Position numbers and translations under genes: made by a program. The notes beneath the pieces were generated by a model. The model ran no database searches. It worked only from the letters and a program-made list of their open reading frames with translations, and had not been told where the DNA came from. Source: Pseudomonadota bacterium (lineage in GTDB: Bacteria > Pseudomonadota > Alphaproteobacteria > SMXQ01). Taken from it: a DNA stretch of 33,526 nucleotides. The stretch lies in assembly GCA_022566265.1 (NCBI GenBank), contig JADFJG010000001.1, forward strand, positions 1-33,526, read 5' to 3'. Shown in pieces: positions 2,758-32,556 of this stretch. The first letter of the stretch is position 1, and each line of letters opens with the position of its first letter.

Positions 2758-4118
2758 TCGGATTTCTCCTCGGGATCGCCGCCGTCCCGCCCGTCGCCCG
2801 GCGCTATATCGAGATCGAACAGCCGTTCGAGCAGCCCTTCGACGGCCGCGGTCTCATCCTGGGGGCCCTGGGGGGTCGCCGTTTCAGGCCCGGCCTCGGC
2901 GGACTCGGCGGCAATGTCCCTCAGCGCCTCGGAAGGGGCGTGCAACAACCGGTTGACGAGACGTCTCGTTACCTCTTCGGCGCTGGCCCGGGGGTGGTCC
3001 GCGAGCACCTCCGCGCGGACTTCCTCGAAACGGCGGCGCAGGGCCGAAAGGGCGGGAACGGCGGCCTCGGCGGCCTTGCCGCGGCCAAACGCCGCGACCT
3101 CTTCGCGAACGATGGCGCGGGCCTTGGCGGCGGCGGCTTGGCGCCTTTCGCGGCCTTCCAAGGCGATCCGCTCGAGGTCGTTAAGGTCATAGAGGAAGAC
3201 CCCGTCGAGCTTCTCCACCGCCGGATCGATGTCTCCGGGCATCGCCGCGTCGATCAGGAACACCGGCCTGTATCGCCGCCGCTTGAGCGCGCCCTCGACC
3301 ATTTCCGCGGTCACCAGATAAGAGCCCCGGCCGATGGCGCCCAGTACGATATCGGCATCGGGCAGGGCCGCCGCAAGGGCATCGAGGGACGCCACGTGGC
3401 ATTCGAACCGCCGCGCCATGGCCTCCGCCCGGCTGTTGACCGTATCGGCGATGGTCATGCCGCCGAGTTTCGCCTCCTTCAACTTGGCGGCCACCAGTTC
3501 GCTGATTTCCCCGGCGCCGATCATCAGCGCCCGGCAACGCCCTAGATCGCCGTGGACCTCGTGCGCGACCTGGACGGCGGCGGCGGCGATGGACACCGCG
3601 CTCTCGCCGATCGTGGTCTCGAAGCGCACCCGCTTGGCGACGGCGAAGGCCGCTTGCATGATGTGCTCGAGCGCCTGGCCCATCATGCCGGCGTCGCGCC
3701 CGAGACGGTGGCTCGCCTTGACCTGGCCCAGCACCTGGGGCTCGCCGAGGACGAGGCTGTCAAGAGAGGTGGCGACGGCAAAAAGGTGCTCGAGCGCTTC
3801 CTCGCCCTCGAGCAGATAGAGCTGACCCGACAAATCGGAAGCCGATACGCCCGCCGTCTCGGCGAACCTCGAGGTGATGATTTCCGCCACCTCGTCCACG
3901 GCGCACTCGGCGGTGACGACCTCGGTGCGGTCACAGGTGGAGATCACCATCGCTTGGGAAAGCCCCGCGGCGCGCAGCGATTCAAGGAAGGCCGGCACGG
4001 CGGCGTCCGCCATGAACAAGGCGTCGCGAAGGGTCAGGGAAGCGGACTTGTGATTGGCGCCGATGACCACCGGGTAGGCGTTGACGGGTGATCCCGCCTG
4101 TCGCGAATTCGCCGCCAT
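2754..4118 (-). CDS. hemA: Glutamyl-tRNA reductase (C5 pathway), somewhat divergent
   Basis: Glutamyl-tRNA reductase uses NADPH to convert glutamyl-tRNA to glutamate-1-semialdehyde, the first step of the C5 route to tetrapyrroles. The 454-residue protein shows the catalytic domain with nucleophile Cys62 in ISTCDRTEV, His111 in [19 protein letters not shown], the NADP-binding domain with GAGE at 201-204, and a C-terminal helical dimerisation region. Three usual positions differ: the residue after Cys62 is Asp where Asn is typical, VATSLDS replaces the usual VAxGLDS, and [10 protein letters not shown] has Gly where DxAxPRDIDP is usual. Whether these matter is unknown. It starts 8 bases after hisS and overlaps prfA by 4. 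Most alphaproteobacteria use ALA synthase instead, also called HemA, so its presence is notable. Confidence 0.9.
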
Positions 4119-26884: not shown

Positions 26885-26909
26885 TCACCCTTCTATGAAA
26901 GTAAGTACT
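26885..26909 (-). repeat. Solo copy of the 32.2-kb repeat core, before the mcl start
   Basis: On the minus strand this reads AGTACTTACTTTCATAG followed by AAGGGTGA. It matches the left core of the element at 32204 at 24 of 25 positions (A for G at one site) and the right core nearly as well. It ends one base before the ATG triplet's preceding G, so the AAGGG acts as the likely ribosome-binding site for the malyl-CoA lyase-like gene. The outer ends of the 32-kb element are not found here, so this is a solo core or a remnant. Confidence 0.8.
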
Positions 26910-32037: not shown

Positions 32038-32060
32038 CTAGCCCGAATAATTCATGAAGG
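32038..32060 (+). repeat. Left terminal inverted repeat
   Basis: A 23-base sequence starting CTAGCCCG and ending AATTCATGAAGG. It pairs with 32534-32556 at 21 of 23 positions. The leading CTAG is palindromic and may be a duplicated target. Confidence 0.8.
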
Positions 32061-32203
32061 CGCTCCCTCAGGATGTGTTAAGTGTTTTACTTCAAGGGCT
32101 TGATTCGTTTTGCGAAAAGGGACGCTTTGTACCCTCGTCCGCTGAACGGTTTTGCGCCGGCCCTGTTTGTCCAAATCGGCGCACCAAACCTCAAGCCATA
32201 GTT

Positions 32204-32224
32204 AGTACTTACTTTCATAGGAGG
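32204..32224 (+). repeat. Left inner core repeat
   Basis: A 21-base core beginning AGTACTTACTTTCATAG and ending in GAGG. It is a perfect inverted copy of 32450-32470 and is nearly identical to the solo copy at 26885-26909. It includes an AGGAGG Shine-Dalgarno-like string, 9 bases before an ATG at 32234. Confidence 0.9.
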
Positions 32225-32237
32225 GTGATACATATGA

Positions 32238-32332
32238 TCGCTTTTCGCGGCCTCCGGGTAGGAAGCGTCGCGCCGACGATGTCTGGACATCGTCAAGCGG
32301 CGTTGACGCCCTCCGGTGGCCGCGAAAAGCGA
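32238..32332. repeat. Left 95-base hairpin
   Basis: Outer stem: 32238-32257 against 32313-32332, 19 of 20 paired, including the perfect TCGCTTTTCGCGGCC/GGCCGCGAAAAGCGA. Inner stems: GCGTC/GACGC (32265-32269 with 32305-32309), CGCC/GGCG (32271-32274 with 32299-32302) and the tip GACGATGTC-TG-GACATCGTC (32275-32294), a perfect 9-base stem. Confidence 0.9.
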
Positions 32333-32341
32333 CCCTTCGGG

Positions 32342-32436
32342 CGGCCTTGCGGGCCCTTCGGACGTCGTCGCGCGGCCCTTGTGATGCACTAGCATCACGG
32401 CGGACCACGCTCCTAGCCGAAGAACCCGCAAGGCCG
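32342..32436. repeat. Right 95-base hairpin
   Basis: Outer stem: 32342-32361 against 32417-32436, 18 of 20 paired (CGGCCTTGCGGG with CCCGCAAGGCCG). Tip: GTGATGC-ACTA-GCATCAC (32381-32398), a perfect 7-base stem. Imperfect pairing between. It has the same length as the left hairpin and resembles it in inverse orientation. Confidence 0.88.
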
Positions 32437-32449
32437 TCAGATGTGCCAT

Positions 32450-32470
32450 CCTCCTATGAAAGTAAGTACT
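32450..32470 (-). repeat. Right inner core repeat
   Basis: A perfect 21-base inverted copy of the core at 32204-32224. Outside it, the similarity between arms continues in patches (CATAG, AAG, CGG, TGTTTGTCCAA, GAACGG) out to 32533. Confidence 0.9.
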
Positions 32471-32533
32471 GGGCTATGACTTTCGGCTTCGCACACCGCC
32501 TTGGACAAACATTGCTCGCCGCAAATTCCGTTC

Positions 32534-32556
32534 CCTTCATGAATTTTCCGGGCTAG
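32534..32556 (-). repeat. Right terminal inverted repeat
   Basis: The inverted partner of 32038-32060, ending in GGGCTAG. It lies 23 bases before the ATG of the CorC/CNNM gene, so the element must lie in that gene's leader or promoter. Confidence 0.8.

Follow-up and report, generated by a model that had tools for sequence, protein, structure and literature searches.

We propose that the symmetric, non-coding element of 519 nt at 32038-32556 of the window (the whole stretch of 33,526 nt analysed here) is very probably two mobile elements, an outer IS1380-type MITE and an inner REPIN-like structured repeat nested at its apex. The earlier note had described a single element with several layers of symmetry, and we recover each of those layers in place: a terminal repeat pair at 32038-32060 and 32534-32556 (23 nt, 21/23 or 91% identical), inverted arms of 60 nt each at 32204-32263 and 32411-32470 whose outermost 21 nt match perfectly, and two hairpins, which the repeat search puts at 32238-32332 and 32337-32441 and a covariance model at 32236-32334 (+) and 32340-32438 (-), 99 nt each and mirrored about base 32337. 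As had been claimed, such symmetry is not due to chance; the folding energy of the 519 nt is -281.6 kcal/mol, whereas dinucleotide shuffles average -179.0 +/- 6.8 (z = -15.2), with 0/100 of them as low. The symmetry is layered because two elements are nested, and in place of one family of copies there are separate outer and inner sets. On one side lies aroB, whose identity was confirmed and which is preceded by a shikimate kinase gene; on the other is a gene for a CNNM/CBS-domain protein, earlier named corC, which scores under the cut-off of the NCBIfam CorC model and is not a proven CorC.

A search of the source genome (G000), an uncultured genome whose gene content points to a probable place in Alphaproteobacteria, with the 519 bp returned 86 matches, mostly in two sets, one spanning query positions 1-164 and 436-519 (outer) and the other about 165-435 (inner). 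These include many copies with precise ends, as the reading of a mobile element had predicted. The outer set comprises over 20 such copies, all non-coding; uninterrupted ones are 244 bp long, with the centre CCATAGCGGTGCTATGA and ends that read CCCGRATWTTTCATGAAGG inwards on both sides. In the window, outer positions 1-160/244 occupy 32042-32201 (+; 95.6% identity to the uninterrupted copy L028) and positions 165-244/244 occupy 32473-32552 (+; 98.8% identity to L028), and the CGGT of uninterrupted copies is replaced by TT (32202-32203), the inner element and GG (32471-32472). CTAG stands on both sides (32038-32041 and 32553-32556), as had been noticed, but is most likely a duplicated target outside the repeat and not its start. 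YTAR sequences flank nearly all of the 21 outer copies listed, including TTAG/TTAG, CTAG/CTAG and TTAA/TTAA beyond the window, and the TTAG/TTAG pairs are direct repeats, not inverted. In 12 of these 21 the two flanking 4-mers are identical, and in the others the differences are mostly C/T or A/G; given the biased target, flank identity alone is weak evidence (concordance p = 0.08, barely above expectation). Where flanks differ, donor flanks were possibly carried over, as piggyBac-like chemistry could allow. Flanks that often differ by C/T or A/G only are seen at L165:4425-4668, L003, L017, L056, L067 and L070, and at L165 the filled site has TTAG on one flank and CTAA on the other, against one CTAA in the sister genome. 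From its copies and flanks, the outer element is a 244-bp non-autonomous MITE at a YTAR site.

The search for a mobilising transposase suggested in the earlier note led to an IS1380-type fragment in G000 with the same terminus. At contig ends C50 and C72, a transposase of PF13701, the transposase family of IS1380, begins immediately after CTAG and CCCGGATAATTCATGAA; because the protein is a fragment, the match (E = 5e-7 over 31 residues) lies under the curated cut-off. Further PF13701 genes occur in both G000 and its same-genus sister G001. An intact IS1380 copy with a matching terminus at each end was not seen, given breaks in the assembly. An IS1380-type DDE transposase recognising the CCCGRATWTTTCATGAA termini would most likely move the outer MITE in trans. 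Among 385 genomes of the class, the outer element is present in G000 and G001 only. The corresponding region of the sister species G001, 94% identical to the window here, lacks the element between aroB and the gene downstream, so the predicted empty site exists; the single CTAG expected there is not preserved because a few bases at the join differ. The outer element thus has many copies and an empty site. It contains an internal palindrome, the central hairpin of which is the landing site of the inner element. In their shared terminus with the PF13701 fragment, their YTAR-type 4-bp flanks and their non-coding, multi-copy nature, the outer copies resemble IS1380-family MITEs; they are unlike them in that no complete parent is seen and in the use of the central hairpin as a landing site. 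No description of an IS1380 MITE with this sequence came up in a literature search.

The inner element sits at the same outer point in four composites: C111 (that of the window), C33, C142 and C80, the last cut by a contig end, and C62 carries a truncated composite. The inner element runs one way in C111 and C33 and the other way in C142 and C80. The outer part of C33 is closer to the uninterrupted L027 (2/244 differences) than to the window's outer part (about nine), and composites cluster neither by their outer nor by their inner part, in trees of low support. On these grounds the inner element was probably acquired at this apex two or more times, one way round and the other; gene conversion between outer copies is the alternative to repeated acquisition. 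The inner element entered the tip of the central hairpin with no target duplication, and the multi-level symmetry results because the dyad centre of one palindrome received a second one. It is somewhat unlikely that the composite formed once and that the IS1380 transposase then copied all 511 bp together to the four sites, which would account for the shared position of the inner element in all four, for junction bases identical within each orientation and for the different sites with YTAR-like flanks, but which sits poorly with the closeness of C33 to L027 and the ungrouped trees and demands an extra inversion for the two orientations.

The inner element is a 267-bp palindrome (32204-32470, +), of which dozens more copies occur in G000 and G001, also stand-alone. 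Two homologous hairpin units, arranged as an inverted dimer, lie within 32-nt complementary arms; the element consists of a left arm beginning AGTACTTACTTTCATAGGAGG (32204-32235, +), hairpin unit A (32236-32334, +; 90.0 bits with covariance model R1, whose training set includes this unit), the 5-nt linker CTTCG (32335-32339), the inverted unit B (32340-32438, -; 93.8 bits with R1) and a right arm (32439-32470, -), the arms being delimited by repeat search and comparison of plans. Other genomes of the class also have elements of this plan, 32-98-5-98-32 (arm, hairpin unit, linker, inverted unit, arm). In all 40 elements compared, the units are ordered + then -, and the linker is 5 nt in 34/40. 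Hairpin A aligns with the reverse complement of B at a score of 84 in G000 (shuffle maximum 59), and the two units score above every shuffle in G289, G236 and G011 as well, though not in G342.

Conservation in this family falls on the hairpins. The 31 canonical copies have two hairpins in common inside complementary arms, and one arm pair, for example, is G-C in 15 copies, A-T in 13 and A-C in 3; because the set includes one distant relative, L037, single departures within it are not within-genus changes. In an alignment of 13 divergent units from five genomes and the T subfamily, GA, AGG, GATG, CATC, ACG and CC are invariant and compensatory changes occur in 26/33 pairs. The covariation score is 0.681, against 0.235 for shuffled alignments (0/500) and <=0.19 in slid controls, and is somewhat favoured because this alignment also supplied the structure. 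A covariance model trained on the 13 units finds unit pairs in the sequences searched, some of its matches being training sequences. In the inner family, the hairpins are kept by compensatory change, with two internal-loop motifs and the apical stem fixed. The inner core occurs in 9/385 genomes of the class, covering seven genera and several families. Its exact terminus matched one MAG only, JACZQV01, and was absent from the viral contigs searched, and plasmid searches with the composite and two relatives gave no match. The earlier note recognised no described family, and we likewise found no Rfam match at gathering score for the element and no match to its sequence strings in a literature search covering open papers, so that an earlier description elsewhere is possible.

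Nesting is repeated at more than one scale: in larger inner versions (about 300, 344, 379 and 421 bp), the apex of hairpin A holds additional hairpins, and several of these small units are found with identical boundaries at other places. A hairpin repeat of 29 bp, CTGCCCTCCGTACNACTTCGGGAGGCGGG, has exact ends at many places in G001 (L300:3462, L262:2196, L117:4270 and others) and is also found inside larger inner elements. A second subfamily, T, with ends TAGAGCRCTATCCGGCCAG, has the same core plan (L196:1415-1681, L299:13034-13302 and L161:1537-1875), and in L161 an inner element is inserted in the internal-loop CTAG of the T element. Three more arm sets surround the same core in G001 (L277:7201-7401, L327:2866-3066, L269:2599-2804 and L283:12115-12324), one of which resembles IS1380 termini. 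A general exchange of shells between cores by nesting was considered and rejected; most subfamily arms align over 32 nt from AGTRC, so plain divergence of the arms explains most cases, and the sequences suggest possible core/arm exchange only for the IS1380-like and TATACCAAAGG subfamilies.

Its copies, empty sites and class-wide relatives establish the inner element as mobile. At seven or more copies, empty inner sites in the sister genome reveal no target duplication, in a two-way comparison of sister genomes in which either state could be the ancestral one. At L007, the empty CC[TG]GG corresponds to the filled CC[C-inner-A]GG; at L158, GG[CTAG]GTCC corresponds to GG[TC-inner-AA]CTCC. Relative to the empty site, one or two bases on each side of the inner element are usually different, in most cases by exchange within the pyrimidines or within the purines, a pattern that fits no simple model. 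The dinucleotide YY precedes 134/158 inner end sites (24.6% expected), and 19/158 inner-end flanks lie in other palindromic elements, compared with 12/4000 random positions (~40x chance), the associated p-values being nominal because both ends of one copy were counted separately. Most of the palindromic targets are the outer apex, internal-loop CTAG sites of the T and S3 subfamilies, or T ends. The inner element has a clear preference for YY|RR sites and other palindromic repeats. A pure hairpin-loop rule for the target was discarded, as the complementarity of the joined flanks (mean 3.1) is barely higher than in controls (2.8).

These observations bear on what kind of element the inner one is. 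Were it an ordinary DDE-type MITE, its 32-nt arms would be the TIRs of an unseen transposon and its hairpins passive cargo; complementary arms at both ends, beginning AGTRC in most subfamilies, and the IS1380-like arms of one subfamily (L283:12115, CTAG CCCGGATTTCTCAC) fit this account, yet the empty sites lack a target duplication, the hairpin core is retained between genera whose arms have diverged, and no transposase gene was recognised between such arms, and we consider it unlikely. More doubtful still is the idea that the element works as a structured RNA gene or as a regulatory element and is conserved as RNA. Its strong covariation, fixed loop motifs, fixed lengths and often intergenic position could be so explained, but presence and absence vary between sister genomes at the same sites, there are many copies per genome, and Rfam has no match. 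Our reading of the 31-copy table is that no single transcribed strand is favoured, because G-U and A-C departures are alike when constant G-U columns are set aside. A conserved regulatory RNA between aroB and corC is ruled out by the empty site in the sister species, and the same DNA is not conserved at this locus across genera.

For the inner element as a mobile structured repeat, we infer that, in REPIN-like fashion, a trans-acting transposase would recognise the hairpin units and move the element as a folded strand, and that the element would favour YY|RR sites, notably fixed positions within other palindromic elements. The leading, weakly supported candidate for this role is a Y1/RAYT transposase. 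Y1_Tnp (RAYT-type) genes are found in 8/9 core-bearing genomes and in 0/8 same-family genomes lacking the core (Fisher p = 0.0004). This co-occurrence serves as a lead only, because the genes are unflanked (units beside Y1_Tnp genes were looked for and none found), G205 has the core and no Y1_Tnp gene, and the eight core-lacking genomes all belong to one family. G000 encodes Y1 proteins at C6 (near 33.6 kb) and C106 (near 8.3 kb). Beside a Y1 transposase gene of G000, short tandem repeats of the GPKMET and RPKASRPGGPF types lie in open frames (L359:1968-2564 (-) and 2778-3323 (-)).

Cyanobacterial small dispersed repeats are small hairpins found within other repeats and have no known transposase; their sizes and sequences are unrelated to the inner element, in a comparison by description only. 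MITEs and REPINs are known kinds of element (PMC10969869, PMC3116915, PMC3733652), and the earlier suggestion of a MITE or a large REPIN-like hairpin pair divides between our two elements, the former applying to the outer 244 bp and the latter to the inner plan. Like REPINs and GTAG REPs with RAYTs (PMC3116915, PMC3733652), the inner element has an inverted hairpin pair, no target duplication, likely mobility in trans and a YAG-G motif on the 5' side of the upper stem, which reads GTAG in 5/7 A-type units. Here the REPIN-like reading meets its limits: REP units measure 20-40 bp, whereas inner units are 98 nt and have extra 32-nt complementary arms, the GTAG that stands at the hairpin foot in REPs is not terminal in the inner element and is absent from B-type units, and no RAYT gene flanked by units accompanies it as in REPINs. 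CGTC-tagged REPs share with it a palindromic nature, abundance in alpha-Proteobacteria and the want of a known dedicated transposase, but have stems of 8-9 bp and a terminal CGTC tag (PMC3733652), and the inner stems and length are far larger and its tag not terminal. Correia, ERIC and other intergenic MITEs, which are able to alter mRNA (PMC10969869), are likewise intergenic, palindromic, multi-copy and 100-300 bp long; their sequence is unrelated, and the inner element is an inverted dimer at which no TA duplication was seen.

We therefore class the outer element with the IS1380-type MITEs and treat the inner one as a distinct, though REPIN-like, family of structured mobile repeats. More tentatively, and at a little under even confidence, we suggest that the inner element founds an undescribed class-wide family of structured mobile elements defined by the fixed 32-98-5-98-32 plan, recognition through hairpin cores and not through terminal repeats, preferential spread into fixed positions of palindromic elements and the making of multi-level palindromes. 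On this reading, nesting of the inner element at the apices of foreign MITEs generates such palindromes. The nested pair in the window also offers a simple origin for structures that seem impossible, insertion of a palindrome at the dyad centre of a second one. The family now has a recognisable core, a covariance model and natural pairs of filled and empty sites, and how palindromic repeats without a transposase multiply becomes testable through protein binding to the conserved internal loop.

Inner-family ends also occur alone. Bare ends of 17-20 nt are inserted at places where the sister genome is empty, and tandem repeats of inner ends (16-23 bp) are seen here and in the distant genome G342; bare or tandem ends lie at L115:5530 (G001), L117:6879-6919, L143:1382-1405 and L401:1501-1517, and look like aborted or repeated insertions. 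Within the window, a solo 25-nt end at 26885-26909 (-), 96% identical to inner positions 1-25, lies immediately upstream of the start codon of an HpcH/HpaI-type aldolase gene, for which it provides the ribosome-binding site; the sister species has a plain AGGAGGGCGAG ribosome-binding site there.
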